A stretch of 38,386 bases of DNA from Methanobacteriota archaeon (GCA_005878985.1 VBMA01000093.1:1-38386); one strand, 5' to 3'. Counted from the stretch's first letter, positions 1,601-22,900 are shown. The notes: generated by a model not told the origin, from the letters alone. Made by a program: numbers and translations.

Positions 1601-4600
1601 TTACGTGTAGCCGCCCTGGATCAATTTCTTGATGTACGGGGTGAGGACCCGCGCGAGGCCCATGTCCCCGTCCCAATCTTCGATCTGGTCCCAGTGATGA
1701 TCTTCCATGTCCTTGATGCATCGTTCGATCTGGGTGGTCCAGCTCTGCGAACCGTCGCCTTCGATCCGAGCCGCGAGCACGAGCCACTTGCCGCGGCCGA
1801 TCAGGATGTGCATGTGGCCGACCGTCATCTCGTTCAGGTCGGCGTAGTCGTCCCCGCGGAGCGCGTCCTTGACGAACGCCTGCACCGCCGTGAGCATGCC
1901 GCTCAAGATATCCATGTCAACGTCGGGCCTCAGCCGTCGGGTCTCGTGCTTGATCAGCAGGCCGTCCTTGTGGTTGAGGAGAAACACGTCCTCGACGATC
2001 GCGTCGCTCGTCTTCGCGGCGGTCGTTGGCGGCGGGGCGGCGGGCTTGGACGCCTCGGCCCCGCGTCGACGCAGGATGAGGAACGCGGCGGCGGCGACTG
2101 CCGCGCCGACGAGGACGAGGATCCACCAGAATTGCGCCAAGAAGCCCGGGGCGGTCGAGAACTGGAAGGTCTTCGACGACACCATCGTGTTCCCGGCGAG
2201 ATCGCGTGCGGTCGGATCGATCACGACGAAGTAGGTCGCCCCGGAATCGAGGTCGCGCGCCGGGACGAACGTCATGACGCGGGAATCCGAACTCCACACG
2301 GATGCGCCGTCGATGGCGGGCGTGATCGAGAACGCGGCCTCGACGGAGGTCCGGTTCATGGGCTCGTTGAACGTCACGACCACCCAAGGCGTCAGGTTCG
2401 TGTTCGACCCGACAGGCCGGGAATCCGTCACGAACGGCTTCGTGACATCGACGACGGTCCATGTGTCGTTCGTCGCGGGAGGCGTCTCAACGTTCCCCGC
2501 GCGATCCCGCGCGATCGAGCGGAAGGCGTAGACGTGGGGGTCTTGCCCAACGAACGTCGCGCCGGTCGCCGTGGTGTACGTATATCCTACGAGATCGGTC
2601 CACGGATTCGCTCCATCTTTCCACTGAATGAGATAGGCCGCGATGTCCGTCGTACCGACGACGGGGCCCCATGCGATCGCAAATTGGAGGGTGTTTTCGT
2701 ATCTCGGTAACGTCGTCACCGCGGACTCGGGTGGCGTGACGTCCACGATCGTCCACGACTCGTTTCCGGACACCGCTTCCGTGTTCCCTGCGCGGTCTGT
2801 GGCGACCGAGCGGAACTGGTACGTGTGGCCATCCTGGCCGGTGAACGTCCCCGAGGTCGTCGCGGCCGTCGCGACGAGCCAGTCCGTCCAGCCGGCCCCG
2901 TTGTCATTCCGTTGAATGTGGTAGGTCGCGACGTCCGTCGTCCCCTCCGTCGGTCCCCATTGGACGATGAAGGAGAGGGATGTCTCGTATGTCGGCAGGG
3001 CCAACGTGCGGGACGTCGGAGCGGTCGTATCGACCCTCGTCCAGGTGTCGTTCGCGGCCGGGGGGACCTCACGGTTGCCCGCGTGGTCCGTGGCGATCGA
3101 CCGGAAGGCATAGATCCCTTGCCCCGAGGCCGTGAACGTCCCGGACGTCGCGGTCGTGCCGACGAGCCAGTCCGTCCAACCGGCGGCTCCGGCATTGTAT
3201 TGGATCGTGTACGATGCGATGTCCGTCACGCCTACGTCCGGTCCCCACGACACCAGGAACGCGCTCCGGTTTTCGTATTGGCCCAACGTATTCACATGGG
3301 AGCCTGGCCCGACTGTGTCGACCATCGTCCACGTATCGTTGGCAGACGGTTGGGATTCCTGGTTCCCCGAGGCATCCTCCGCCGTCGTGGCGAACTCGTA
3401 TACCCCGTCGGCCGACGCCGTGAACGAGAGGAAGCCGAAGTTCCCGCCGGGTTGGACGGAGTACTGGATCCAGATCGCGCTTCCGGCCGTCCGGTACCAC
3501 AGGGTGACGTTGACTACCCCGGTCCCGTTCCCGTCCGAAGCGCCGTACGAGATCCAGAAGGTGAGCGTGTTCTCATACGTTGGCAAGGGGCTGGCCGCGG
3601 ACGTCGGGGCGTCCTTGTCGACCATTACGAACGATTCCGTGTGGCTGGTCCCCATGTCGACGGACCGCGGGTCGTTGGTGAAAGCGTAAGGCGGGTACGT
3701 CACGCTGACCTGGGTCACGTTATCGGTCGGGATCGGAGAGTTCACGTAGATGCGGTCCGTGACGAGGATCCAGGATTGGATGCCGGAGGGGGCCGTGCGA
3801 TCCCAGATCGTCGTGCTTCCGTCCGAGACCTTGATGCGTGCCCCGCCGACCGGCATGAAACCGTTCGGCCAGAGCGCGTCGACCTCAAGGAAGTTCCGGA
3901 CCGTCAGATTCCCCGCGGCCATCACCGCGAGCTTCGTGAACGGACTGTTCACCGCTATCGCTTGCGTGTAGTTGTCCACGAAGAACTCGTAGCTCCCGAT
4001 GGACGACAGCGTCGCGTTTTCGGCCGTGAAGTGCATCTTAAACGTCTTGTTGCCGACGAGGTAGTATCCGTCCGCATAGGACGTCTGAATCGGGGGACCG
4101 GTGCCCGCTCCGCCTTTCGTCACGCTCGAAATCGTATCCCCCGCGGAGAGGCCGTTCAAGACGAGCCCCGAGATAACGCCGTATGCATCTCCGCCGCGGC
4201 CACCGTTCGTCCCGACGACGGAGTCCCCACCTCGGCCGCCTTGCATCGTGGTCACCCCGTTCGATGAGAAGTCCGGAGACGTGTATACCGCAGCGATTCC
4301 CGCCGCCGTGCCCCCGTTGCCTCCGAATCGCGTGCCGATGCCTCCGGCCCCGGCGGTGATCGTATCGAGTTGGTTGAAACTGGCCTGGGTCTTGTTGAAC
4401 GCACCGTCGTTGTTTCCGAAGAAGATGAGTCCGGTCGCGTTGCCGCCGTATCCGCCGCGCACGCTGCGGCCTCCATCGCCTGCAACGAGAGTCGCCAACG
4501 TGTTGGCATGGACCGTCGCCGGGCCTGCGACGTAGAAGACCGCGACCCCGTTCGCCGCGCCGCCGGTCCCACCGTTCCCGGAGCCTCCACCCGCGACCGC

Positions 4601-5911
4601 CCCGTTTCCGCCGATGCCGCCCCGGATGTTCTGGAGAGAGTTACCACTCGTATCGACGTTTCTCGCACTGATCAGGAACACCGCGTCTGCGTCGCCGCCC
4701 GTTCCGCCGTTCCCGTTCGTCGTCCCACCGTTTCCACCGAGTCCCCCGCCGCCGCCGGTTACGCCGCCGGCCGTGTTCGTGAATAACTGGCTGATTCCGA
4801 CTGAATTCGCCACTTCGATGGCAACGGCCGTGCCCGCGTCTCCGCCTCGGCCACCGGCCGTCGTCGTGGCGCTCCCGCCGCCCGATCCCCCGTTTCCGCC
4901 GGTCATGGTCGTGACCATGTTCCACTGGATCATCGGGCTCGTCGTGCCGACGACGACGATGCCCGCGGCGGAACCCCCGTTGCCGCCCCGACCTCCCGTG
5001 CCTCCGGTGTTTGCCTGACCGTCGCCCCCCCGTCCTCCACTCACGCTGTCGACGGCGTTGCTCGTGATCGAAGCAGACGGTGCCCCAGACACGTAGATGC
5101 CGGCGCCGATCGAGCCGTCACGACCCGGGGCCCCCGGACCAATCCCGGCGGCTCCTGCGGAGCCGCGGATTCCCTGAACCGTGTTTCCGTCAATCGATGC
5201 GGTCGCCCCGCCCGTTAGGAGGATTCCCATCGCGAACCCGCTGCTCACGTTCGTGATCGCGTTGCCCGAGATCGTCGGGAAACCGGGCTGCTCGATCTGG
5301 ATTCCGACCGCGGTGTTGTTGATTGCGTTGCCGGAAATCTGGACGCTGGATGCGTTCGCGTACACGCCCACGCTCGTCGCGCGGATGATCGTGTTGCTAG
5401 ACACATAGCTCGATGACCGAAGGAACACGAATCCGGCTCCCGCTTGGATGACCTTGTTGCTGATGATGTCCGGAGAGCTGTCCGTCGCCGAGATCGCCCG
5501 GTCGACGCGATCGAACGTCGACCAGGAAACGGAGCCGGATGAGCTGGCGTTGAATTGAATGCCGCCCCACGGGGTCAGGGATGACGTGTTCGCGGCGAAG
5601 GTGATCGGTTTCGCCGGGGTCCCGTCGGCTTTCAGCTGCCCGTCGACGAAGAGGTGGACGCCCGGATCGAACTTCACCGTCGTCCCGGGCATGATCGTCA
5701 GGGTCCGAGGAGCTCTGATCGTGACGGCACCCGTCGCGATGTAGACCGTGTCGGCCACACCCCACGTCACGTCCGTCGTGTACACACCTCGGACGTACGT
5801 GGTGGCGCTCACGGTCGGGGCGCTGACGAGGAGAACTGCCCCAATCGACCCGAGGAGCGCGAGGGCCACCGCCACACTTCTCATCGAGAACCGCGAAGGG
5901 GGGGTGCGCAT
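1601..5911 (-). CDS. Large surface protein: signal peptide, parallel beta-helix with glycine-rich inserts, four Fn3-like repeats, Big_5/Ig-like domain, single TM, C-terminal cytoplasmic domain (longin/roadblock-like?)
   Basis: 1436-aa ORF; N-term MRSVAVALALLGSIGAVLLVSAPTVSA; repeated SGNxI..N beta-helix rungs; GGRGGDGG-type inserts; repeated DTTAPTS..LPTYE..L.F.V.WGP...TDIA.Y.IQ..; FWWILVLVGAAVAAAAFLILRRRG TM; tail EDVFLLNHKDGLLIKHETRRLRPDVDMDILSGMLTAVQAFVKDAL. Confidence 0.9.
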   Translation of the reverse strand: MRTPPSRFSMRSVAVALALLGSIGAVLLVSAPTVSATTYVRGVYTTDVTWGVADTVYIATGAVTIRAPRTLTIMPGTTVKFDPGVHLFVDGQLKADGTPAKPITFAANTSSLTPWGGIQFNASSSGSVSWSTFDRVDRAISATDSSPDIISNKVIQAGAGFVFLRSSSYVSSNTIIRATSVGVYANASSVQISGNAINNTAVGIQIEQPGFPTISGNAITNVSSGFAMGILLTGGATASIDGNTVQGIRGSAGAAGIGPGAPGRDGSIGAGIYVSGAPSASITSNAVDSVSGGRGGDGQANTGGTGGRGGNGGSAAGIVVVGTTSPMIQWNMVTTMTGGNGGSGGGSATTTAGGRGGDAGTAVAIEVANSVGISQLFTNTAGGVTGGGGGLGGNGGTTNGNGGTGGDADAVFLISARNVDTSGNSLQNIRGGIGGNGAVAGGGSGNGGTGGAANGVAVFYVAGPATVHANTLATLVAGDGGRSVRGGYGGNATGLIFFGNNDGAFNKTQASFNQLDTITAGAGGIGTRFGGNGGTAAGIAAVYTSPDFSSNGVTTMQGGRGGDSVVGTNGGRGGDAYGVISGLVLNGLSAGDTISSVTKGGAGTGPPIQTSYADGYYLVGNKTFKMHFTAENATLSSIGSYEFFVDNYTQAIAVNSPFTKLAVMAAGNLTVRNFLEVDALWPNGFMPVGGARIKVSDGSTTIWDRTAPSGIQSWILVTDRIYVNSPIPTDNVTQVSVTYPPYAFTNDPRSVDMGTSHTESFVMVDKDAPTSAASPLPTYENTLTFWISYGASDGNGTGVVNVTLWYRTAGSAIWIQYSVQPGGNFGFLSFTASADGVYEFATTAEDASGNQESQPSANDTWTMVDTVGPGSHVNTLGQYENRSAFLVSWGPDVGVTDIASYTIQYNAGAAGWTDWLVGTTATSGTFTASGQGIYAFRSIATDHAGNREVPPAANDTWTRVDTTAPTSRTLALPTYETSLSFIVQWGPTEGTTDVATYHIQRNDNGAGWTDWLVATAATTSGTFTGQDGHTYQFRSVATDRAGNTEAVSGNESWTIVDVTPPESAVTTLPRYENTLQFAIAWGPVVGTTDIAAYLIQWKDGANPWTDLVGYTYTTATGATFVGQDPHVYAFRSIARDRAGNVETPPATNDTWTVVDVTKPFVTDSRPVGSNTNLTPWVVVTFNEPMNRTSVEAAFSITPAIDGASVWSSDSRVMTFVPARDLDSGATYFVVIDPTARDLAGNTMVSSKTFQFSTAPGFLAQFWWILVLVGAAVAAAAFLILRRRGAEASKPAAPPPTTAAKTSDAIVEDVFLLNHKDGLLIKHETRRLRPDVDMDILSGMLTAVQAFVKDALRGDDYADLNEMTVGHMHILIGRGKWLVLAARIEGDGSQSWTTQIERCIKDMEDHHWDQIEDWDGDMGLARVLTPYIKKLIQGGYT

Positions 5912-5975: not shown

Positions 5976-6001
5976 TATATTACTCAAATGGCGCCGTTAT
6001 C
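5976..6001 (-). promoter_or_regulatory. Putative promoter: GATAAC-N13-TAATATA (minus strand)
   Basis: Reverse complement of GTTATC 5996-6001 and TATATTA 5976-5982; upstream of the minus-strand start at 5911. Confidence 0.55.
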
Positions 6002-6091
6002 CCGCGTGATACCGACTTCGCAACCGGATAACGGCCGTCGCACCTTGACGATGCGAGAACCTTCAAGCCGCGCCGAGGGTTTGGCCGCCCG

Positions 6092-8212
6092 ATGTCCCGC
6101 TCGGGACTCGATGCGATCTTCTCGCCGTCATCCATCGCGATCGTCGGCGCGTCCCGTCACCGCGGGAAAATCGGATACGAAATCCTTCACAATCTCATTT
6201 TGAACGAGTTCCAGGGGACCGTCTATCCGGTGAATCCGAAGGCGACGAGCGTCCACGGGATCCGGGCGTACCCGAACGTCCTCGAAATCCCTGGCCCGGT
6301 GGACCTTGCGGTGATCACCGTACCCGCCGAGGTCGCCCTCCAATCCGTCGAAGATTGCGGGAAGAAGGGCGTGAAAGGCCTCATCGTAATCACGGCGGGC
6401 TTCCGAGAGATCGGTGACGTGGGAACGGACCGAGAGGCGCGGCTCCTCGCGGTTTGCGCGCAGTACGACATGACGATGATCGGCCCGAACTGCATGGGCG
6501 TGATCAACACCCATCCGGACATCCGCATGGACGCGACGTTCGCGCCGACGCCGCCGTTGCCCGGCGGAATCTCGCTCGCCACGCAGAGCGGCGCCCTCGG
6601 GATCGCCATCCTGGACCATGCGAAATCGCTGGGCGTCGGTTTCGCGAAATTCTGCTCCTTGGGGAACAAGGCGCAAGTGAGCCTGAACGATCTCCTTCAG
6701 GTGTGGCACGAGGACCCGGACACGAAGCTGATCCTCGCGTACATCGAGAACTTCGGCAACCCGCAGAATTTCGTCCGGATCGCGCGCGAGACCACGAAAG
6801 ACAAACCCGTGATCGCGGTGAAGTCGGGCCGATCGGAGGCCGGAAGCCGCGCGGCGGTATCGCACACCGGTTCCCTGGGGGGCTCGGACCTCGCCGCGGA
6901 GGCCGTGTTCTCACAGACCGGCGTGCTACGGGCGAACTCGATCGAGGAGCTGTTCGACCTGGCGATGGCGTTCGCCTTGCAGCCCGTCCCTCGCGGGGAC
7001 CGCGTTGCAGTCGTCTCGGATGCGGGCGGCCCGGCGATCATGTGCGTCGATGAGCTGGTCGCCCAAGGGCTCCGGCTCGCGGAACTGTCGCCGGCGACTC
7101 GGGCGGAGATGAAGAAGTGGGCTCCCCCGGAGGCGTCGCTCCAGAACCCGATCGACCTGACCCCGCAAGGGAGCCTTGACGATTACCGCCGTGCGATGGA
7201 CGCCGTCCTCGCGGATGGATCCGTCGACGCCGCGATCGCAATCTACGTGCCGCCTGTCCGAGTCGACGAGGTGGAGGTCGCCCGCGCGATCTGGGAGATC
7301 ACCCGAAAACATTCGAAGCCGGTCCTGTGCAACTTCCTCGGACGCGCCCAGGATAGTGCGGGCTTCGTCGAGCTCGTCACGCATGGCGTGCCCTCGTACT
7401 CGTATCCGGAGAGCGCCGCGCGGGCGCTCGCCGCGATGCATCGGTATGCCCGATACCGGGACCGGGACGAAGGAGACCTTCGCACGTTCCCGGTCGATCG
7501 CGGCATTGCCGAATCCGTCTTGACCCGGAGCCGGGCGGAGAATCGAACGTTGTTGCGCGCCGAGGAGGCGAACCGCCTCCTGGAAGCGTACGGGATTCGC
7601 ACCGCGAAGACTCGGTTGGCACCCACCGTGGAGGATCTGCCGGCCACCGCAGCAGAAATCGGATATCCGGTCGTCGTGAAGGCGGTCGGCCCCGCTCTTG
7701 TGCACAAGTCCGAACTGCAAGCCGTCCTGCTCGATGTCCGCGGGAAGGAGGACCTAGTCGAAGGGGCGTCACGCATGGCCCGTCGCCTCCGGGACCGAGG
7801 CGTCGCCATCGAGGGATTCCTGGTCCAGGAGTTCGTGACCGGCGGCACCGAGGTCATCCTGGGCATGACCCGAGACAAGGTCTACGGGCCGTGCCTTGTC
7901 TTCGGGCTCGGCGGCATCTACGTCGAGTACCTGAAGGACGTTGCGTTCGGACTGCCGCCGTTGACGGATCGCGACGCGATGCGGATGATCGAATCAATCC
8001 GGACCTTCCCGCTGTTGCAAGGCGTGCGGGGCGAACCTCCGCGAGACGTGAAGGCATTGCAGGATGCCCTCCTGCGACTCGCCCAGCTCGTGTCGGATTC
8101 AGACCGGATCCAGGAGATCGACCTCAATCCCGTAATCGTCCTCCCGGAGGGGAAGGGTTATCGGGCCGTCGACGCCCGGATCGTGCTCGCGCCGGCCCCG
8201 CCTCGGGTCTAG
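6092..8212 (+). CDS. Acyl-CoA/acetate--CoA ligase (ADP-forming), fused alpha-beta subunits
   Basis: 706 aa; N-terminal CoA-binding (FSPSSIAIVGASRHRGKIGYEILHNL), active-site His context AVSHTGSLGGSD, C-terminal ATP-grasp (YPVVVKAVGPALVHKSE...GVAIEGFLVQEFVTGGTEVILGMTRD). Confidence 0.93.
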   Translation: MSRSGLDAIFSPSSIAIVGASRHRGKIGYEILHNLILNEFQGTVYPVNPKATSVHGIRAYPNVLEIPGPVDLAVITVPAEVALQSVEDCGKKGVKGLIVITAGFREIGDVGTDREARLLAVCAQYDMTMIGPNCMGVINTHPDIRMDATFAPTPPLPGGISLATQSGALGIAILDHAKSLGVGFAKFCSLGNKAQVSLNDLLQVWHEDPDTKLILAYIENFGNPQNFVRIARETTKDKPVIAVKSGRSEAGSRAAVSHTGSLGGSDLAAEAVFSQTGVLRANSIEELFDLAMAFALQPVPRGDRVAVVSDAGGPAIMCVDELVAQGLRLAELSPATRAEMKKWAPPEASLQNPIDLTPQGSLDDYRRAMDAVLADGSVDAAIAIYVPPVRVDEVEVARAIWEITRKHSKPVLCNFLGRAQDSAGFVELVTHGVPSYSYPESAARALAAMHRYARYRDRDEGDLRTFPVDRGIAESVLTRSRAENRTLLRAEEANRLLEAYGIRTAKTRLAPTVEDLPATAAEIGYPVVVKAVGPALVHKSELQAVLLDVRGKEDLVEGASRMARRLRDRGVAIEGFLVQEFVTGGTEVILGMTRDKVYGPCLVFGLGGIYVEYLKDVAFGLPPLTDRDAMRMIESIRTFPLLQGVRGEPPRDVKALQDALLRLAQLVSDSDRIQEIDLNPVIVLPEGKGYRAVDARIVLAPAPPRV

Positions 8213-8610
8213 TCGCCGGGAACCGGGCCGCTCAACTCGATCCAAATCCCATCCGGATCTTCGACGTATGCGAGCATGCTCCCTCCTTCGGCGAAGGGAG
8301 GATGGCCGCTTCGCGCCCCTTTCGCGATCAGTTCGCCGTAGGCCCGCTCGACATCCGCGCACGCGAACGCGATGTGATCCAGCTCGTCCCCGTTGCGATA
8401 CGGGCCGGTGAAGAACTTCGAGCCGTCTGGATACCAGTTCAACTCGAGCATCTGCTTGGACCCGGCACTGCGGAGCTCCGCCCATTCGCCGTCCGTCTCC
8501 GGAACCCGCTGACGGCGCACGACGCGCATCCCCAGGACATCCCGATAGAAGGAAATCGAACGCTCCAAGTTCCGAACCTGAATCCCGACGTAGGCGAGTG
8601 TGTAGCGCAT
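8209..8610 (-). CDS. VOC-family (glyoxalase/bleomycin resistance-like) protein
   Basis: 133 aa; YVGIQVRNLERSISFYRDVLGMRVVRR...NGDELDHIAFACADVERAYGELIAKGA...YVEDPDGIWIELSGP. Confidence 0.88.
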   Translation of the reverse strand: MRYTLAYVGIQVRNLERSISFYRDVLGMRVVRRQRVPETDGEWAELRSAGSKQMLELNWYPDGSKFFTGPYRNGDELDHIAFACADVERAYGELIAKGARSGHPPFAEGGSMLAYVEDPDGIWIELSGPVPGD

Positions 8611-8713
8611 CGAACCAATCCGGGAGTGAAGGGCCGCCCATAAGCGATTTGCCGCCGGACGACGGCGCGTAACCCTTGTAGCCTCGCCCGCCTATGTCGG
8701 TCCGGAGGGGGAC

Positions 8714-9088
8714 ATGATCCAAATTGACGTGGAGGTCCCGGACCGGCCGGGAGAGCTCGCGAAGCTCGCGGCGATCCTGGGAGATGCGGGCATCAACATC
8801 GACGCGATCGGCGCCGAGTCTGCGGGCGGGCGATCGTACGTGAGCCTGATCGTCAACCAGCCGATGCAGGCCCGGGAGGCGATGATGAAGAGCGGATACG
8901 CTTGCTCGACGCGGACCGTCCTCGTCGTCCGCCTAGACGACAAGCCGGGCGCACTGGCCGCCCTCGCCCGGAAGCTGGGCGATGCCGGCGTCGATGTCGT
9001 CAGCGCGATCCACCTCGGCACCGTGGGCGGCCATGCCCAGGTCGCGCTCGGTGTCGACAACTTGGAACGGGCTCGGTCTCTCGTGTGA
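8714..9088 (+). CDS. Tandem ACT-domain protein
   Basis: 124 aa; two ACT motifs: VEVPDRPGELAKLAAILGDAGINIDAIG and VVRLDDKPGALAALARKLGDAGVDVVSAI. Confidence 0.87.
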   Translation: MIQIDVEVPDRPGELAKLAAILGDAGINIDAIGAESAGGRSYVSLIVNQPMQAREAMMKSGYACSTRTVLVVRLDDKPGALAALARKLGDAGVDVVSAIHLGTVGGHAQVALGVDNLERARSLV

Positions 9089-9150
9089 GCCCTCGACGGA
9101 CCGAGGACGACGCGCTTCCCGCGAGGCCTTCACCGCCCCTTCTCACAACC

Positions 9151-9176
9151 GATAACCAAAGCCCGTTTCTTAAATA
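9151..9176 (+). promoter_or_regulatory. Putative promoter: GATAAC-N13-TTAAATA
   Basis: GATAAC 9151-9156, TTAAATA 9170-9176, 72 bp upstream of ATG 9248. Confidence 0.6.
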
Positions 9177-9247
9177 AGGAGCGGGCCGCTCGATTTCTCC
9201 GTACTCGAACCGCGAGGAGATGCCCTCGCGACCTAGGCGGCCAGCGT

Positions 9248-10654
9248 ATGCAAGGGGCGATCGAAGCTCTGCTTTCCGGTCTCGTACTGCGAGGCCTCGG
9301 CCCGGCCCTCTCCGGAATCCTCATGGCCGCTCCGCTGAAGAAAGTCGCCCGGGCGCAGCTCAAGAAGATCTACGTCCTCGATGAGCGCGGCGAGATGGCC
9401 GGGGAATACATCCTCGATCAGGATTGCCCGATCGACTACAACGACTTCCTGAAAGTTTTGCCCGATGAAGGGATCGGCGATCGCGATTCCTTGTTCGTCG
9501 GCGAATATGTTTTCACAGCATTCCAGAGCGGCAAGTTCGTGTTTGTCCTCCTGTCGCGCGGCCAACTCGCGCCCGAGGATGTCAACTGGACCGCCCTCCT
9601 CCTCACGGCCGCGGATTCGCATCTCGCGTCCGCGGCGAATCGCCCTGCGCCGGCCCGCGCCGCCGAACCGAGACCGGAGGTCGACAAGGGAATCGCGGAA
9701 CGCGATGCGCGCCTCCAAGCGAAAGAAAAGTCCCTCGCCGAGCTCGAGGCGAAGCTCAAGGCGGACGCAGCCAACCTGAGTGGACGCCAGGAGGAGCTAG
9801 ACCGTCAGAAGGCGAGGCTCGCGGCCCTCGCGGACTATTCCACCCAACTGCAGGATGCGGTGTCGAAGGGCGCCTCCCGGTCGGCGAAGACCCTGGAGAT
9901 CGCGGAACAGCTCGCGACGAGCTCCAACGAGGATTCGAAGAAGGCCGAGTCGAAGGCCAACTCGGACGCGCGACAAGCATTCGAGCAAGAGCGGAAAGCG
10001 CTCATCGCGGCGAAGACCGAGCTCGAAACTCGCTACCAAGAGGGTTCCGCCAGAATCGCCCAACTCGAAAAGGAGGCGAAGGCCTCGGTCGCCTTCCTCG
10101 AAAAGGAACGGGCGGAGACCGCGGTTCGGTCGGCGGAAGAAGAGAAGACCCGCCGCGAAATCGAGAGCCGGGTGGCCGACCTGAGTCAGCGTTTCACATC
10201 AATGGCGAAAGAGCGGCTCGTGGCCTCGCATCGACCCCCCGGCGAGGTCTCTGATGAAGTTCGGAAGGCGATGGAAGGCGAGAAGTCCGAGCTCGCGCGG
10301 GAGCGCAAGTTCCTGCAACGTCGGGCGATCGAACTCCTGGACCGCGAGGAGCGGGTCCGGGACCGCGAAGCACGGGTCGAGGAACGAGACCGGGATTTCG
10401 GGCGACGGGAGAAAGATCTCTCCACCCGCGAGGAGGATCTAGACCGGCAACGGACGCTCCTCGCCCAAGCGAAGCCGCAGGCGCCCGAGATCCGCGCCGA
10501 ACCGGACGAGGCGAAGAAGGACATCGAGCGGCGCGTGAAGATCATTCAGCAGAAGGCCCTGGAGCTGCTGGACCGGGAGGAAAAACTCCGGAGGCGAGCG
10601 GCGGAGCTCGAGGCGATGGAGGCCCGGCTATCCGGGCGAGTGACGGTCGAGTGA
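9248..10654 (+). CDS. Coiled-coil protein with small N-terminal domain shared with the 4428-aa protein; conserved C-terminal tail
   Basis: 468-aa ORF preceded by TTAAATA box (9170-9176); N-domain KKIYVLDERGEMAGEYILDQDCPIDY; heptad coiled coil; RKFLQRRAIELLDREERVR and RVKIIQQKALELLDREEKLR near the C-terminus. Alternative ATG at 9323. Confidence 0.88.
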   Translation: MQGAIEALLSGLVLRGLGPALSGILMAAPLKKVARAQLKKIYVLDERGEMAGEYILDQDCPIDYNDFLKVLPDEGIGDRDSLFVGEYVFTAFQSGKFVFVLLSRGQLAPEDVNWTALLLTAADSHLASAANRPAPARAAEPRPEVDKGIAERDARLQAKEKSLAELEAKLKADAANLSGRQEELDRQKARLAALADYSTQLQDAVSKGASRSAKTLEIAEQLATSSNEDSKKAESKANSDARQAFEQERKALIAAKTELETRYQEGSARIAQLEKEAKASVAFLEKERAETAVRSAEEEKTRREIESRVADLSQRFTSMAKERLVASHRPPGEVSDEVRKAMEGEKSELARERKFLQRRAIELLDREERVRDREARVEERDRDFGRREKDLSTREEDLDRQRTLLAQAKPQAPEIRAEPDEAKKDIERRVKIIQQKALELLDREEKLRRRAAELEAMEARLSGRVTVE

Positions 10655-10685
10655 ACCGGATTCCCCTCCAGAAGGAATCAGGTCA

Positions 10686-10711
10686 GATAACCACCAAACG
10701 GCGCTTAAATA
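10686..10711 (+). promoter_or_regulatory. Putative promoter: GATAAC-N13-TTAAATA
   Basis: GATAAC 10686-10691, TTAAATA 10705-10711, about 208 bp upstream of the GTG at 10919. Confidence 0.6.
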
Positions 10712-10918: not shown

Positions 10919-13900
10919 GTGAAGGCGCGAACCGCGTTCCTCGTCGCCTTCGTCATGCTGGCAACCGCCGCCCTGGTGGTCGTAAGCCAGTCGATGCCCG
11001 ACCCGCTCGCGGAATTCAGATCTCCCGACGGTCGGCTCACGATTCCCGGGCGTGCGTTGACCCCGGAACTGCAACGGCTGCTGTTTCATGGGAATGATCT
11101 GCAGCCTTTCACCAATGTCACCTTCCTTCTCCCGGCGCGATCTTCGTATCCGACGGAGCGCCTCGTCGCAATCTCATTCACGTCTCCAAATCTCAACGTC
11201 TTCGTTCATCCGCGTCAAGCGCCGGAAACGTGGGGCAGCGCGATCAATCACGTCCTCCGAGTGTGGTTCCCTCCGATCGACTGGCACGAGGTGGCAGTCG
11301 GATTCCGAGACTCGATCCGGGACGGCGTCGGGTGGTTTTTCGATCTCTTCACGATGAATGCTAGGGCCGACGCATTGACGGTGGATTCGACGACCGTCGC
11401 ACTCGTCGACCCCGCCGCGGCAACCTGCACGACCTCTCAATCGGCGACCGCGGGCGACAACGCGGTGCTCGTGATGCTCAGCAATCGAGGGCCCACCGCG
11501 TACACAAGCGTTACGTACGGAGCGGCGAGCCTCAGCCTGATTCCCGGGACCGCCACGAGCGGCACCGGAATCGTGCGCACGGAGATGTGGTTCTTCCAAG
11601 GCGTGATTCCAAGCGGCGCTCAGACGATGACGGCCACGCTCGTGAGTGGCACCGCGAAACAGGTGTGTGCCACGGTCCTCCTAGGGGGAGTATTGGCCAC
11701 GACCCCGACCGCGGGAGGAACCACGGCGAGCGGGACGACCGCGAATCCGAGCATTTCGATTTCCCCGGCATCCGCCGGCGAACTGGCTTTCGCGGTCCTG
11801 GGGATTCGAGGGACCACGGCACCGACGGCCGTCACCGGCACGGCCGCAACCGCGATGTCTCTCTACGGAATCGCGCCGACTCAGTGCGCCGCCGCACCCA
11901 CCACTTTTTGCGGCGCGGGAGCCGACATGCCCTTCCCCGGCACGGCAATCACCTGGACGGACGGCAACGCCACCGACTGGGTCATCTCCGCGGTCCGCGT
12001 GCTGCCCACCCCGAACTGCGGCGTTGCGTCGGGGAACTGCTATCGGATCGGAGCCGGCGGGACGTGGGCCACGGGTGCGAACTGGTCGAATACGTCCGGC
12101 GGGGCCGCGTGTAGCTGCACTCCCGTCGCGACGAACGATGTGATCTTCAATGCCACTCCCACCGGCACCACGACCCTTGCGGCAGCCACCACGATCGCGA
12201 GCATCGACATGACGGGCTTCACCGGCACGCTCGACACGACCGCATCCAACTGGGCTCTCACGGTCAACGGGCCATTCGCGATTCAGGGGACGGTCCAGGC
12301 TCGGAGTTCGACGATCACCGTCACCGGGGATGTCGACGTGCTCACCGCGGGGACGATCGTCAATCTCGGCGCATCGAGCTGGACGGTCAACGGACTGTGG
12401 ACCAATCTCTCGACCTCCGTCTCGTGGGCCGCGGGGACGAGCACGGTGACGATCCGAGATGCCGGGAGCGGACCACTGACGTTCGCCGCGCTGGCCGGCG
12501 GGACGAACGAGTTCAACAATCTCACGCTCGACGCCAGTGTGACCCCCAGCATCACGTACACGATGGCGGTCAACGCGCTGAGGATGGGAGGGACGCTCAC
12601 GATCCGCAACTCGACGGGCGGGGCGACGGGACCGACCATCTTGACGACATCCGCGTCGAACTTGGGCATCACCGCGGGGGCGCTCACCCTCTCGACTTTC
12701 GGAAGCCTGACGGCGAATGGGTCAACCGTCGTGGTCAACGGCAACCTGAACGTCAGCGCTGCGAACGGCTACGTCGTCATGGGTACGTCGACTTGGACCG
12801 TCACGGGGACTTGGACGAACGCGTCGACATCCGCCTCATGGACTCCCGGGACCGGCACGGTCACCTTCACGAGTGCGACCGGCGGGACGATGACGTTCGC
12901 CGGGACGAATCTTCCGAGCAACGAGTTCAACAACATTTCGTTCACCTCCTCGGCGGCGTCCGCCCAGACCTTCACCATGGGGACAAGGGCCCTCATCTGG
13001 GGCGGGACGCTCACGATCTCGGACGGTTCTTCGACGACGGCGCTCGCAACCGCCAATCTCGGCCTGACCGGCGGCGCCCTCGTTGTCGGCAATGGCGGCA
13101 TCCTCACCGCGAACGCGTCTACGGTCTCTGTGTCGAGCGTGGCGATGACCGGGGGGACGAGCGGAACGATCACGCTCACGAGCAGCTCGTTCACGAGCAC
13201 CGGTAACTGGGACACGAGTGGCGCCGGCTCCGTGTTCACGAAAGGCACGAGCACGGTGACGATGAACGGGGTGGCCAACATCGCGATTCTGAACGCGGGC
13301 AACAACTTCAACAACCTGGTCCTCTCGGCGGCGGGAACGGTCACCCAAACCGGCCTCGTGGACGTCTCCGGGACCTTGACGGTGAGTGCCGGCTCAGTCC
13401 TCGCGAGCGGCACCTTCACGCTGACCGTGGCCACCCTCGCAGCGAACATGGCGGGTGGAATCACCGGGGGCGCGGCGGGCACGAAGACGATCACCGGGAA
13501 TGTCAGCATCGCCGCCTCGGGATACTTCAGCTTCGGCGCGACGACTTGGAACTTTGGCGGTTCGTGGACGAACTCGACGACGAGCGGATCGTGGTCCGCC
13601 GGAACGGGCACGGTTGTCTTCAATTCCGGCTCGTCTCGCACCATGACCTTCGCCAACTTGGGAGCCTCGGAATTCAACAACGTGCAGTTCAGCCCGACCG
13701 CCGCGGCCACGTTCACCATGGCGACGAACGGACTCCGATGGGGAGGCACGTTGACCCTCAACAACAATGCGGCCCTGGCGACCGCGAACCTCGCGTTGAC
13801 GGGCCCGGGAGGGAACCTCACCGTGAACAACGGGGCCACCTTGACCGCGGGCACGTCCGTCGTGAGCGTGACCAACGTGACGATGACCGGCGGGACCTCC

Positions 13901-16900
13901 GGGACGATCACGGCCGCAGGCTCCTGGACCGTCGCAGGGAACTGGGACACGTCCGGAGCGGGCTCCGTCTTCACGGCGGCTTCCAGTTCCGTCACGATGA
14001 GCGGAGCCGCGAAGACCGTCAAGACTCTGAACGCGTCGAACGGCTTCGGCGCACTCACGATCAGTGGCACCGTCACCGCGGCATCGGCGACCACACTCGC
14101 CGGCCTCCTGACGGTCAGCGGCACCTTCGACACGACCGCGACCAACTACGGCCTGTTCGTGGGCGGCGGCCTGACGGTCAGCGGTGCCGCGGCAGTCCTC
14201 CGATCAAACGGATCGACCGTCTCGGTGGCCGGGAATGTTTCCGTGAACAATCCGGCCGGCTACATCACGTCCGGCGGCGCCGGTTCGTGGACCGTCTCCG
14301 GATCCTGGACAAACGCGTCCACGTCCGCGTCCTGGAATTTCGCGTCTCCAATCACGTTCAACTCATCGGCCTCTCAGACGATGACCTTCGCCGTCCTTCC
14401 GGGAGCAGCCGCCGAGTTCAACGACATCGCGTTCAACAGCGGCGCGTCGACCGTCACGTTCACCATGGCGACGAACCGCCTCATCTGGTCGGGGACCTTG
14501 TCGGTCCAGGGCGGGGCCGGAGCGACGACCCTCGCGACGAGCAACCTGACCCTCACCGGCGGCGCACTCACGATCGGTAACGGGGGTGTGCTGACGGCGA
14601 ATGCATCCGCGGTGAGTGCATCGAACGTCACGATGACGGGCGGTGCGTCAGGTACGCTGACGCTGACCACCGGCGCATGGACCGTCACGGGTAACTGGGA
14701 CACATCTGGCGCAGGCTCGACATTCACGGGCGGAGCCAGCACCGTGACGATGACCGGAGCGGGCACGACCGTCAAGCTCCTGAACGCGTCGAACGGGTTC
14801 GCCGCTCTTGCCGTCAGCGGCACCGTCTCGGCCGCCTCGGCCCTCACGACGGCGGGACTCGTCACCGTGAGTGGTATGCTCGACACGACGGGCGCGAACT
14901 ACGGCCTCACGATTGGTGGCGGGCTCACCGTCAGCGGGGCGAGCGGGGTGCTCCGCTCGAATGCGTCGATCGTCTCGGTGGCCGGGAACGTGAATGTCAA
15001 CAACGCCGCGGGCTACATCACGTCGACGTCCGGTGGTTCTTGGACGGCGTCCGGGTCGTGGACGAACGCCTCGACGTCGGCCTCGTGGGGTTTTGTCGCC
15101 CCGATCACCTTCAACTCGTCGGCCTCGCGGACGATGACCTTCGGCAACCCGACCCAGGAATTTGGCGGGAACGTCACGTTCAACTCCGGCGCCTCGACGG
15201 TCACTTTCACAATGGCCACGAACAGCCTGGCCGTCGGCGGGACGCTGACGATCTCAGGCGGAGCCGGAACGACGACGCTGAACACGAGTGGATCAAATCT
15301 CGCCATCAACGCGGTCACGTTGGTCGTGAACGCGGGAGGAGCCCTCACGGCCAACGGATCCTCGATTACCGTCACGTCGATGGACACCCACCTCGGGACA
15401 TTCACGGTCGGCGCCTCGAACGTCGTCGTGAACGCATCGGGCGGCTCCATGAACATCACGCAGACCGTGAACAATCTCACGGTCAGTCCCGCCGTCTCGA
15501 CGACCTTCACCGGATCTCTCACGTGGACCGGAACGCTCGCCTTCACGAACGCCGGGACCGTCGCATTCGGAACGAACAGCCTGACCTCCAGCGGCGCCGC
15601 GACGTTCACGTTCGCATCGGCGACGATCACGATGAGCTCGGGGAACTGGGATACGTCCTCGGCCACGACCTTCACGGCGACCAGTTCGACGGTTACCTTC
15701 TCAGGGACCGGGAACCTTCGAATCGGGGGAAGCGCCTCCTTCAATGCGCTCACGGTCAGCGGCGGCACCCGGACTCTTCAGAGCCAACTCACGACGGCGG
15801 GATTGCTGACCCTTTCGGGCGGCATCCTCGCGAAGGGGACGAGCGCGCTTACCGCCAACGCCGGACTCACGATGTCGGGAGGCGCGCTCACCTCCACGTC
15901 CGGCGGGGTCAGCATCACCGGCAACGTATCGATCGCGGCGGCGTCCTACATCGTCTTCGGGTCCGAGACTTGGACCGTGAGTGGCTCGTGGACGGACAAT
16001 TCCACGTCGGCGAGTTGGTCGATTGGAACCGCGACCGTGGCCTTCAACGCGTCGTCGGCGCAGACGATCACGTTCGCCGCTCTCCCGGGCAACGCACCCG
16101 AGTTCTACAACGTGACCTTCAACAGCGGCGCGTCGACGGTCACATTCACGATGATGACGAACGCCCTGGCTTGGTCCGGAATCCTCACGGTCCAAGGAGG
16201 GGGCGGGGCGACGACGCTCGCTACGGGCAATCTTGGCCTCATCGGAGGCGCCATCGCCGTCGGCAATGCGGGAGTCCTCGCTGCGAACGCCTCCGCGGTG
16301 TCAATCTCCGGATTGACGATGATCGGAGGGGCGAGCGGCACGTTGACGCTGACGACCGGTTCATGGGCCGTCTCCGGCAACTGGAACACCAGCGGGCCGG
16401 GCTCCGTATTCTCGAAGGGAACATCGACGGTCACGTTGACTGGGTCCGGGCAGACGGTATCCATCCTCAACGCTTCGAACGGGTTCTACAACCTCACCGT
16501 CTCGGGGACCGTCACTCAGTCCACCGCCGTCGATGTGACCAATTCGTTGGCGGTGAGCGGAACGCTGACCACCGGAGGGTTCAACATTACGGGCGGCTCG
16601 AACCTCTTCGTCCCGGATGGTGGCACCCTGGCGGCCGGCACCTCGACGTCCACGTTCACGAACGTCACGATGACCGGAGCGGTCTCGGGTACGATCACCC
16701 TGACGGGCGCATGGACCCTGGGCGGTTCTTGGAACAGCACCGGCGCAGGCTCGGTTCTGAACTCCGGGACCTCGACCGTGACCTTCACCGGGACCTCTCA
16801 GACCGTCAGCCTCGCGTCGGGCCAGATGTTCTACAATCTCACGATCGGCGGTACGGTTTCCATCAACTCGTCCGTGACCGTGGCGTCGACTTTGACAGTG

Positions 16901-19900
16901 AACAACGGCGCTGTCCTCACAAAGACCGGCCAGACCATCGCCTTCAACACCTTGACGCAGAACGGGACCGGGAGCATCGTCGACGGAGCAATCACCGTCG
17001 TGAACTTCTCCGTCACGAACAGCGATGGAACGAATCTCACAGCCATCGGCGTGTTCACGACGTGGACGATCGACGCGGACTACACGTGGACCCATTCATC
17101 GACGGTCGCGACCTCGACGATCACCTTCACGATCGGAGGGAACACGAGCGGGCAGCGATTCAATGTGACGAAGGACGCCGTGGACTTCACGAACGGACTC
17201 GTGAACGGTTCCGGTCAGATCGTCTTCGCGATGCTCGGCTCGGATCCGGTCGTCGACGTCCGCCTTACATCGCCCTGCGGGGGCAACCGATATTGGATCG
17301 GTGGGACCGGTAGCTGGTCCCAGACGGCCCACTGGGCGGATTCGACGGGCGGGGCGAACGGATGCTCCGTGCCGAACTCTTCGAACCCCGTCTTCTTTGA
17401 CGCGAACTCCGGAGGCGGAACCGTCACGATTACTCTGAATGTGGCGGTGACTTCGCTGAACACGACCGGGTGGGCCGGGACGATCGCGATCGGATCGTTC
17501 GACCTCGCGGTGAGCGGCGACATCGTCCATGCGGCGGGAATCATTTCGATTGGCGCCTCCTCGAATGCCGGCCTGACGGCCACCGGGACGCTCACTCTCT
17601 TGGGTTCCGCAGTCCTCGACGGGTCTGGCGTGGCGTCTTTGGTCACCATCGCCGGTGACACGTCAATCACGAGTGCATCGGCCTACTTCCGGATGGGCAG
17701 CGGCACCTGGACATTCGGAGGGTCCTGGTCCAACAGCAGCACTTCGACGAACTGGGTCGCAGGAACCGGCGTCGTCATCTTCGATTCTTCGTCCTCGCAG
17801 ACGCTGACTTTTGCGAATCTCGCGGGCGACGAATTCCACGATGTGACATTCCAGTCCGCCGCGGGCAGCGGGACAATCGTCTTCTCGATGGCGGCGACCG
17901 GCCTTCGCTGGAGCGGACTCCTCGCCATTCAAGATTCCGTGGGTTCGACGACCACGCTGGCAACATCGAATCTCTCCCTGACCGGCGGATCCCTTGCGGT
18001 CGGCAACTCGGGAACCCTCATCGCAAGCACGTCGAGCGTCGCCGTGGTCAACGTCACGATGACCGGCGGCGCCTCCGGTACGCTGACCCTCACGAGCGGG
18101 TCTTGGACCGTGAGCGGGCAGTGGAACACGTCGGGGACGGGTTCGACGTTCGCTCGGGGCACGAGCACGGTCACGATGTCGGGCACGTCGGCGAGCGTCG
18201 CGACCCTCGACGCAAACAATGGATTCACCAACCTGGCGATCTCCGGCACGATCACGCAGAGCACCGCGCTCGACGTGCGCGGCACGCTGTCCGTGACGGG
18301 CACGCTCACCACATCGGGGAACAACATCACGGGCGGTGCCAACCTCACGATCTCTGGAGGCGGGAGCCTGATCGGGACCGCATCATCGATCGTCGTCTCC
18401 GGGGTGACGATGAACGACGCGGGGACGAACTCCATTTCCCTGACGATCGGCTCGATTTCCGCGTCGGGCTCATGGGACACCTCCGGATCGTCGTCGGCGT
18501 TCACAGCCGGCTCGTCCACGGTGACCCTCACCGCCGCCACCGGAACAATCGCGATCGGGCCCGCTCAGTCACTCGCGACCTTGATCATCGCCGGAAGCGT
18601 CACGATGGCATCTCCGTTGACGGTCTCCTCCCTCACGATCATCTCCGGCGGACTCGCTAAGGGCCCGCACGCGCTGACGGTGAACGGGAACCTGACGTTG
18701 GCCGGGGGCTACCTCACCTCGACGTCCGGGTCCGCCTCCATCGCAGGAAACGTGAACGTGTCTTCGTCGTCGTCCTACATCGCGTTTGGCTCGGGAACCT
18801 GGATCATCTCCGGGAATTGGACGAACGCCTCGACCTCGGCATCTTGGTCCGCTGGGTCCGCCGTCGTCACATTCGACGCGACGACCGATCAGACGATGAC
18901 GTTCGCCGGAGCCAACTTGGCCGGCAACGAATTCAGCACGGTCGAGTTTGACAGCGGCTCCTCGACCACGACGTTCACGATGACCTCCGACGGACTTGCG
19001 GCGCAGACCATCACGATCCAAGGTGGCCCCGGGACGACCACGTTGACGACCTCGGGCGCGAGTCTCCCGATTCTCGCGAATGCCCTGACGGTTGACGTTG
19101 GCGGGGCACTCGCCGCGAACGCGAGCATCCTGACGGTTCGGTCCCTGAACACTGCCAGCGGCGCATTCGCTGCCGGGACCTCGACCGTCGTCGTCAGCAT
19201 CTCCGGCGGCTCCATCAACGTCCCGCAGACTCTGCACGACGTCGTCGTGAGCCCCGGCATCAGCACGACCTTTGCCTCGAGCATCACTTGGTCCGGGGCG
19301 CTGACACTGACGGACTCCACGACCACCTTCGACGGCAACCTGACTTCGAACGGCCTTGCGGTCCTCAACCTCGGAACCTCCACGATCTCCATCGCAGGAT
19401 CGTGGGACACCTCTTCCGCGGCGAGCCTCACATCGATCGGGTCCGCGGTGACCTTCACCGGTGACAGCGGCACGATCACCCTCGGTGCAGGCCAGCGGTT
19501 CGCCACACTGACCATCGCGGGGACCGTCGCTCTCGGGTCCGATCTGACCGCGGACACCCTGACCGTGACGAGCTCGAGCGTCCTGACGATGACGAGCCAC
19601 GGCATCGCATTCAACAGCCTGGCGGTCAACGGGACGATTGCGGATGGACCCGTGAACGTGACCGACCTTTCGGTCACGAACAACGATACGACCGCCTTGG
19701 TCACGATCGCGGGGTTCCGCGAGTGGTCCCGAGGGTCCTCGTACGCCTGGACCCATACCTCGAGCGAATCGTCCCAGACAATCACGTGGTCGATCGGTGG
19801 AAATGCCGCGGGCATCCCGTACACCGTGACGAAAGACGGCTCGTCGTTCGCAACCGGAACCGTCAACAGTTCCGGTCAGGTCGTCTTCACCATGCTCGGC

Positions 19901-22900
19901 TCCGACCCCGCCATCCAGGTGACGGTGCACAACCCGATTCCGCCGCCGTGGTGGCAGTCCTCCTACATGCTTGCGATCTTCCCCATTGGAATCTTGTTGG
20001 GTGTTGCAATGTTCGCGCAACGACAGCGCTGGAGGCCCGCGAAGGCCTTCCTCGTGGACGACAGCGGGAGAATGCTCAGGGAATTCACCCTGGACCCGGC
20101 CTGCCAGGTCACGTACGACCAGGCGGTCCAGGCCGGCATCTTGGACGCGGTCGACAAGCCGATCAAGATCACCAAGTACCACGGCCAGACGGTCCGCGGG
20201 GACGCACTCGCGGTCGTGCTCCTCGCCTACGGACCGGTTACACGGGAGCATGTCGAGTTCGCTCGGGAGATGCTCGTCCAGATTCAGGACAAGTTTGAGG
20301 ACGGCGTCAAGCAACGTCTGGAAGAGGCCCGTGCCCAAGAGGCCAACGTGGCGACGCAGATGAACGACCTCGCGACCCGCCGGACCGAAGTCGAGACCCG
20401 TGCGGCCGAAGCCCAAACGATGGCCCAGCAATCGGAGGCCGTCCAGGCGAAGATCATCGCGGACACTGACGCCGTCGAGGCGAAGGAACAGGATCTTCGA
20501 CGACGAGAAGAGGAGCTGGCGAACAACCGCAGGGCCATCGATGAGCTGGCCCGCCAAACCGAAGAGGACCGGAGCTCAATCGACCGACGCACCGGGGATC
20601 TTCAAGGCCGGGCGGCCGAAATCGCCGCGAAGTCCGAGGCGGTCGAGGCTCGAGAGGAAGCGGTCAGCGCGCTCGAGCGAACCCTTCGGGACCGAGACGA
20701 GACCCTCGCGACGGGAGAGGCCGGCCTTCAGGAAATCCGGGAGCGCCTCGCGACCGATACCTCGGCGGTGCAAGCGAGACTCGACGAGGCCGGGCGGCGT
20801 GAGGAAGCCCTCGGCCGCGATCAGGCGAACCTCTCGAATGCCCGCGAAAAGTTCCAGGCGGAGCAGCGAGAGCTGCTCGAGTTCAAGCGTTCCATCGATA
20901 GCCGGGTCAGCGCCGTCGAGGAGAAGGAGACCGAGATGGACCGCCTATCGAAGGACGTCGCCGCGCGAGAGGCCCGCGTGGTGCCCGAGGAGGCGCGCCT
21001 CGCAGAGCGGGCGAATGTCGCTGAGCAGAAGGAAGCCGACCTGAAGGCCCGCGAGGACAGGCTGACAGCGAGAACCCAAACGCTCGACGGGCGCGAGCAG
21101 GAGCTCAGCAGCCGCGAGGTCGCGCTCAACGAGGACCGCGTGGTCCTCGCGGAGGCTCGGGGCGCGTTCGAGTCGGATCGGAGAGAATTCGAGGAGCGCA
21201 AGAACCAAGCCGACGAAGAGGCGCGCCGACGCCGGAGCGACCTGGATGGTCAAGCCAAGACGGTCGGCGCGAGTCAGCTTCGCTTGGCCCAGGAGAAGGA
21301 GAGCCTCGAAGCCGCGCACAATGAGCGGAGCCAAGCCATCCTATCCCGGGAGATCGAGCTCGAGGCCCGCGAACAATCCCTCCAAGAGAACGAAGAAGCC
21401 AACCGCACCCAGGCGGACGAAAACGCTCGGCGCTTTGGCGAACTGACCGGTCGAGAGGAATCCCTCGAAATCGAGGCAGCGAAGGCCGACAAGGTCCGGA
21501 GCGACCTCGATGCCCGGAAGGCGGATCTCTCGAGCCGCGCGACAGAACTCGAGGAAGAGGCGGCTCGATTGCGGGGGGAGGAGGCAAAAGCGGCCGAGGA
21601 GAGACGGACCTGGCAGACGACTTTGCAGTCTGAGCAAGCGTTGCTCAAGGACCAGCGAGACGCGTTCGAGCAGGAGGCCGCTTCGGCCCGTGCCTCGTGG
21701 GCCGATCGCGTGATGCGGATCGAGGCGCGCGAAGTCGACCTCGAAGAGAAAGAAGAGAAGGTCCGGACCGACGTCGACTGGGTCGCCCGAAGCGACGAGG
21801 ACCTCAAGCGCCGCGAGAAGGCCGTCGAGGAGGCGGGGCGGTCCGCTGCGCAGGTGCAGGCCAGCGCCGAACGCGCCACGAAGGAGGCCGAACAGCGATT
21901 CCTCGAGATCGAGTCGCGCGAACGCGCCCTTCGAGAAGAGGCCGCGCACGAAGCGATCGAACTCACCAAGCAGACGGAGGCGTTGAAGCAATTCGAGACC
22001 GAGCTGAACTCGAAACAGGCCGACTTCGAGAAGGAGCGGACGGCGCAGACCCAGCGACTCCGGGAGACCGAGAACGAACTCCATTCAAGAGCTGGCACCC
22101 TTGAGGCGAAACGCCGCGACCTCGAGGAACGGGAGAGCCGAATCGCGGGCATGGAGGAGTCTCTCCATCAGGGCGACGAGCGGCTTCAGCGGGAACGTGC
22201 GGACCTGCAGGCGACGGCGAAACAGCTCGAATCCCAGCAGCTCGAACTCGCGCAGCTCAAAGACCGATACGAGTCGGAGGCCACACGCGTTCGCACTGAA
22301 GCGGAGGGCATGCGGCAATCCGTGGCGGCCAAAGAATCCGAACTGCAAGCCGAGCGGGAGCGGATCGAACGGGATTCGTCCGCCCTCCAGGAGACCCTCG
22401 GTGCGAAGGCGAAGGAGATGTCGGTCCGAGAACGAGCGCTCACCGCGCGCGAGGCAGAGCTCCAGACCGAAGAGCAAGAGCTCGAGGCCCGCGGACGAGA
22501 GCTCGAATCAAAAGAACGCCAAGCCGAAGCCCACCTGACCGAGATGTCTGCGCAGGCGATGGCGCTCATCCGGCGAGAGCAGGACTTGAACTCCCGCGGG
22601 ACCCAGGTCGAACAGACCATGCGTCGGTTCGAGTCGGAAGCGACGGAGAAACGGCGCGAATGGGAATCCCTTCAGACGAGCCTGAAGTCTCAGCAGGCAC
22701 AATTCACCGCGTCGTCGGAATCTCGCGCCGGTGATCTCGCGAAGAAAACGGTAGAGCTCGAGGCACGGGATCGCAGCCTTCGAGCGGCTTTGGCCGCGAT
22801 GGAGGTCGAACGATCCAAACTCGATGCTGAGTCAAAAGCCCAATCCGCCAAAAGCACCGAAGCGGAGGCGGCTTGGCGACGATCGGAAGCCCGTCTCGCG

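Follow-up and report, generated by a model that had tools for sequence, protein, structure and literature searches.

Archaeal activators are known to bind just upstream of the B recognition element (BRE), and to act from there by recruiting TFB or TBP to elements that are weak (PMC5512572, PMC10665913). EarA of Methanococcus maripaludis and Pyrococcus furiosus is a small activator that binds DNA and is believed to recruit TFB; its boxes, of the form TACATA or A(C/G)(C/G)TACA(T/C), frequently come in repeats and belong to the archaellum operon (PMC10665913, PMC5512572). At sugar-inducible promoters of Sulfolobus an activator box, the ara-box, directly precedes a weak BRE; where the BRE is strong, the promoter can do without the box (PMC5512572). 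The UV-inducible hexanucleotide of Sulfolobus, A(N)TTTC, is non-palindromic, lies at -44 to -39 and marks 214 genes (PMC5817253), in a regulon that includes pili and the transcription factor gene tfb3. Here we describe a bipartite promoter site, WATCR-N5-GATAAC, held exactly 13 bp upstream of a TATA box in a 38,386-nt stretch of DNA from a Methanobacteriota archaeon (GCA_005878985.1 VBMA01000093.1:1-38386; hereafter the window). In kind it is akin to the EarA boxes and to the UV hexamer of Sulfolobus but, because its sequence and targets differ, it is a member of neither system. Judged from sequence comparison, it is probably the switch common to a regulon that spans the order and comprises cell-surface, membrane and surface-to-cytoplasm coupling proteins.

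GATAAC is followed at exactly 13 bp by TWAWWTA at three sites in the window, all at the coordinates given in an earlier, sequence-only reading of this DNA, and no further example occurs in its 38,386 nt. The observation that both plus-strand sites share the longer form GATAACC-N11-CTTAAATA was likewise correct. What had gone unremarked is a second fixed element, WATCR, which ends 5 bp before GATAAC at 3/3 sites. The parts are as follows, the whole sites coming from the GATAAC-N13-TATA pattern search.

5976-6001, minus strand: whole site of the 1436-amino-acid (aa) gene
5976..5982, minus strand: TATA box TAATATA of the 1436-aa gene, the same in 11/11 aligned orthologous promoters
5996..6001, minus strand: proximal half-site GATAAC of the 1436-aa gene, 13 bp upstream of the TATA box
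6007..6011, minus strand: distal element TATCA of the 1436-aa gene, a degenerate GTTATC half-site 5 bp upstream of GATAAC
9151-9176, plus strand: whole site of the 468-aa gene
9141..9145, plus strand: distal element TCTCA of the 468-aa gene, within TTCTCA, invariant in 20/20 orthologous promoters
9151..9156, plus strand: proximal half-site GATAAC of the 468-aa gene (pattern search and orthologous promoters)
9170..9176, plus strand: TATA box TTAAATA of the 468-aa gene (pattern search and orthologous promoters)
10686-10711, plus strand: whole site of the 4428-aa gene
10676..10680, plus strand: distal element AATCA of the 4428-aa gene (aligned sites)
10686..10691, plus strand: proximal half-site GATAAC of the 4428-aa gene (pattern search)
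10705..10711, plus strand: TATA box TTAAATA of the 4428-aa gene (pattern search)

The window contains 9 GATAAC and 4 TWAWWTA on both strands together, from which ~0.0005 matches at this spacing would be expected (P for three or more, ~2e-11), and no GATAAC-N13-TATA match turned up in 100 dinucleotide-shuffled versions of the window. Since the arrangement had been picked post hoc, however, its real test lies in DNA outside the window. Our genome-wide statements rest on pattern searches and individually read stretches, with the reversed pattern as control. A scan of the whole source genome (G000; 2.11 Mb, 200 contigs), as the sequence-only reading had proposed, gave five GATAAC-N13-TATA matches and none for the control, and the two additional exact sites precede genes for an MscS channel (L001) and a DUF835-domain membrane protein (L002). 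With the gap opened to 1-31, six matches were found, five of them at gap 13. Across 19 genomes of the genus, scanned at gaps of 3-23, 80/93 matches fell at gap 13 (control 1), as did 36/70 (24/52 distinct strings) in 17 genomes from other genera and families of the order. A gene-first test, in which orthologs of the 468-aa gene were collected by protein search and their upstream DNA then read, is independent of the motif in its selection: GATAAC stood at the same place in 20/20 copies from 19/19 genomes, followed by the TATA variants TTAAGTA, TTAATAG and TTAATAA in G009, G014 and G017. Because the proteins at matched loci are up to ~40% different and the spacers differ too, it is the elements and their spacing that are conserved rather than a block of DNA. 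The proposal of a shared transcription factor is thus strongly supported by fixed spacing, by conservation in orthologous promoters and by re-use at unrelated genes in other families, and co-regulation of the site-bearing genes appears very likely. The outcomes named beforehand as fatal to it (occurrence at background rate, presence before many unrelated genes, or lack of conservation in orthologous promoters) are not what we found.

The distal half of the site emerged from an alignment of 103 distinct sites, in whose choice it had played no part. These show W, A/C, T, C and A/G at -10 to -6 from GATAAC and little information further upstream. TC(A/G) stands at -8 in 69/77 genus sites, with counts at other upstream offsets beyond the core of at most 6 (17 at -3), and in 8/26 sites outside the genus. 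The match to GTTATC at -12 to -7 averages 3.9/6 in the genus, compared with mostly 1.0-1.6 at other positions, and some NosD-gene promoters (G014, G017, G007) carry a perfect GTTATC-N6-GATAAC. On this evidence WATCR-N5-GATAAC is best understood as an inverted repeat, an imperfect version of GTTATC-N6-GATAAC, with the strong half adjoining the core promoter. The bipartite pattern is present in 16/16 sampled genus genomes, with 0 control matches there, and nearly absent outside the order. Since the window belongs to an archaeon, the TTAAATA/TTATATA part is an ordinary archaeal TATA box, and the novelty therefore lies in the bipartite site upstream of it and in the constant phasing of the two. 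The geometry fits archaeal TATA/BRE core promoters, in which the TATA box lies ~25-30 nt upstream of the transcription start: in the leaderless MscS, KaiC-like and GTPase genes the start codon falls 31-32 nt after the first TATA base, which for MscS places GATAAC at about -50 to -45. The BRE region is A-poor (1.16 vs 1.82 A per 6 bp in a small control set of 28 further TATA promoters from these loci), and the BREs of GATAAC promoters look weak.

Like an EarA box, then, this is a short motif at a fixed position (13 bp before the TATA box) upstream of a BRE that looks weak by that 28-promoter comparison, and its targets include surface structures. Unlike EarA boxes, it reads WATCR-N5-GATAAC, is single, and occurs at many scattered promoters; neither the EarA box sequence nor, in 41 genomes searched at the Pfam cut-off, an archaellum target is found, which rules out the EarA regulon proper. 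It shares with the Sulfolobus UV hexamer a hexamer just upstream of BRE and TATA and a genome-wide regulon, but the sequence is different (GATAAC, at about -50 to -45), the UV hexamer has no second half-site and the phylum is another, so that it is not a UV box. With the ara-box it shares a position directly upstream of a BRE that looks weak. The host is most likely a soil member of the Thermoplasmata, of the order RBG-16-68-12, Ca. Angelarchaeales (assignment after Diamond et al. 2022, PMC9038741); the archaeon is GC-rich, and among named genomes those closest to it are 'Euryarchaeota archaeon EA_*' and Rifle RBG genomes and bins labelled 'Thermoplasmata archaeon'. Archaellins (PF01917) score above cut-off in 0/41 relatives and in 4/4 control archaea. 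The likeness suggests that EarA-style activation, from a box just upstream of a weak BRE, may serve surface genes in archaellum-less lineages. Our literature searches returned nothing relevant on GATAAC in archaea or on a Thermoplasmata promoter motif or winged-helix regulon, and no regulon with the WATCR-N5-GATAAC motif in uncultured soil or sediment archaea.

As for the extent of the regulon, the idea of three co-regulated genes is strongly supported as to the co-regulation and fails on the number, which is too small: a scan for the full bipartite motif with two mismatches found 14 sites in the source genome, about nine of them beyond the five exact ones, and 13 in G014, with a control of 0 in each. 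Recurring in at least two genomes are archaeal type IV pilin-like proteins (PF07790, with a GGTAAC variant), a DO-GTPase2-like protein (a weak match, below cut-off), an alpha-helical repeat protein, a coiled-coil protein, a membrane protein, and BNR-like and beta-helix-like secreted proteins (named by eye). A Ras-like GTPase, also named by eye, has a site in the source genome (two mismatches) and independently in another family (G035). In other families of the order, KaiC-like ATPases, a PKD-type membrane protein and a secreted protein are preceded by the exact arrangement, as are CheY-like proteins in a family that lies outside the order. The common theme is envelope and surface-to-cytoplasm coupling. 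A generic promoter element is ruled out, since only ~14 promoters per genome carry the motif. The fixed operator-to-TATA code would make co-regulated genes predictable from sequence alone in any genome of the order, and through the motif GTPases, pilins and a mechanosensitive channel are linked to giant proteins whose function is unknown. Among other genes with such promoters are a conserved membrane protein (L123, L118, L116, L252; no Pfam match for the one scanned) with a GATAAC promoter, and an 84-aa DUF3303/GYD-domain protein of several genus members (L172, L041, L103, L185) whose promoter has a GATAAC-like N13 arrangement and no distal half-site.

The regulon also yields a small candidate regulator. 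TF1, a small ArsR-like winged-helix protein (G000:C121:11493-11891), was found among one-mismatch matches and, with its paralogs, is present in 37/37 order genomes searched. Its own promoter has GATAAT-N13-TATA in 22/30 copies read, spread over four families, and that of its paralog TF4 has AATCA in 23/23 copies read and AATCA-N6-ATAAY in 19/23, over six families (TF4 counts made by eye). Hardly any variation is seen in the recognition-helix region, IPIAA-YR-I--LE. TF1 passes Pfam HTH_20 (PF12840) with 32.1 bits against a cut-off of 27, which TF4 does not reach (22.9 bits), and its predicted fold is a winged helix of the form H-H-H-beta-wing (pLDDT 78). The nearest solved structure is that of the ArsR-family regulator Phr of P. 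furiosus (2p4w; sequence E=0.01, fold TM 0.62), yet TF1 is not Phr, scoring 20.3 bits against the NCBIfam Phr_regulator cut-off of 320. Outside the order, the TF family occurs in 9/10 genomes with the bipartite motif vs 43/157 others (P=1e-4, uncorrected for kinship). The own-promoter sites, the winged-helix family and this co-occurrence make TF1 or TF4 the leading candidates; that one of them binds the surface-gene sites and is autoregulated seems to us an evenly balanced proposition. The regulator does not lie beside archaellum genes, its neighbours being a KaiC-like ATPase gene and a second winged-helix paralog; in a conserved cluster, two or three genes for winged-helix regulators adjoin a KaiC-like ATPase gene (G000:C121:11490-14069, L218; G023:C8, L223).

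The motif, its 5-bp and 13-bp spacings, their conservation, the gene list and the sites in the two winged-helix regulator promoters were computed directly. In the mechanism that we propose, TF1 or TF4 would bind WATCR-N5-GATAAC as well as its own promoter and, once bound, would activate rather than repress, recruiting TFB or TBP to the weak BRE in an EarA-like manner without archaella. Activation by such recruitment is favoured because the site lies upstream of the BRE, in rigid phase, and the BRE is A-poor. Several points weigh against this picture. The regulator genes carry mostly GATAAT rather than GATAAC, so a paralog could instead bind the GATAAC sites of the surface genes; there are several related winged-helix genes per genome (1-8 found); the TF family is distributed more widely than the motif; the distal half is often unrecognisable outside the genus; and the choice of activation over repression draws on just the position of the site and the apparent weakness of the BRE.

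The main rival, which we consider unlikely, has a repressor acting at the same operator on the same regulon, blocking TFB or RNA polymerase from just upstream of the BRE. The heat-shock regulator Phr, nearest to TF1 among solved folds, acts as a repressor, and autoregulated regulators often repress. The whole site, however, is upstream of both BRE and TATA, in the region bound by archaeal activators (PMC5512572), and weak-looking BREs also speak for activation. Less probable still is that GATAAC-N13-TATA is a core promoter in extended form, recognised by an alternative general factor (a paralog of TFB or TBP) and not by a separate regulator. Rigid phasing with the TATA box would suit this, and alternative TFBs occur in many archaea; but GATAAC lies 6-7 bp beyond the BRE, the second half-site 5 bp further upstream gives an inverted repeat typical of a dimeric helix-turn-helix regulator, and only ~14 promoters per genome use it. 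Descent rather than regulation might explain the likeness of the three window promoters had they been recently duplicated, and the 468-aa and 4428-aa genes are indeed neighbours with a homologous domain, and their sites share GATAACC and CTTAAATA; this is largely refuted, and very improbable, in that spacers, BREs and flanks differ and the same arrangement precedes unrelated MscS, DUF835, KaiC-like, GTPase and winged-helix regulator genes in several families. A chance pattern, chosen after the window had been read, is refuted by replication in independent genomes with near-zero controls.

Carried further, the reading of the bipartite site as the switch of an activated regulon leads to a more tentative suggestion, which we hold to be possible and somewhat short of probable: an autoregulated winged-helix master regulator of the whole archaella-less order, acting through one rigid operator to switch on a surface-to-cytoplasm machine. 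Its parts would be the giant anchored surface proteins, coiled-coil partners, pilins, the mechanosensitive channel, the Ras-like GTPase and the double-GTPase-like protein, joined in some families by Roadblock, KaiC-like and CheY proteins. If true, the order would have an envelope or polarity programme of a kind not seen before and, with it, its first described operator code. The presence of MscS in the regulon, together with a soil habitat of drying and wetting, makes envelope or osmotic stress a first guess at the inducing signal.

The genes behind the three window promoters are these.

1601..5911, minus strand: 1436-aa gene (regulated gene 1), NosD/Big-domain surface protein
9248..10654, plus strand: 468-aa gene (regulated gene 2), coiled-coil protein
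10919..24205, plus strand: 4428-aa giant gene (regulated gene 3), repeat ectodomain, transmembrane segment, cytoplasmic domain and long coiled coil

The 1436-aa protein is secreted or anchored, with NosD repeats, Ig-like Big domains, one transmembrane segment and a cytoplasmic C-terminal domain. All three had been described as large surface/coiled-coil genes; the coiled coil is borne out for the 468-aa protein, which is not clearly at the surface. The domain at the N-terminus of the 468-aa protein shares homology with the giant protein's juxtamembrane domain, and no homology was found with the C-terminal domain of the 1436-aa protein; the structure predicted for it (pLDDT 44.5) is too low in confidence for its fold to be named. 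Many genus members (L054, L058, L067, L077, L078 and others) have a paralog just upstream of the 468-aa gene, which was not found in the window genome; it has GATAAC at -76 to -91, no TATA box at N13, and a conserved GAAAC-CTCAA stretch instead. The ectodomain of the giant gene is wholly different between lineages (10919-24205 compared with its counterparts L106, L057, L093, L120, L138 and L130), being of a repeat type in the window and elsewhere of a type marked by 'WNSTTAADFAGPDxxTNVDL'. With the promoter and the position of the gene unchanged, this is an apparent swapping of ectodomains between lineages. An extra GATAAC at 6027-6032 (plus strand), in opposite orientation (GTTATCC on the minus strand) and ~25 bp upstream of the operator of the 1436-aa gene, is kept in the closest relatives and is possibly a second operator between divergent genes. 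Finally, other GATAAC-to-TATA gaps are conserved locally: a gap of 16 (G023:C10, G028:C78, G020:C101, G021:C155) stands before a small protein in one family and, in another genus, before a winged-helix paralog, and a gap of 10 is conserved in a third family (G022:C40, G027:C9, G033:C24).

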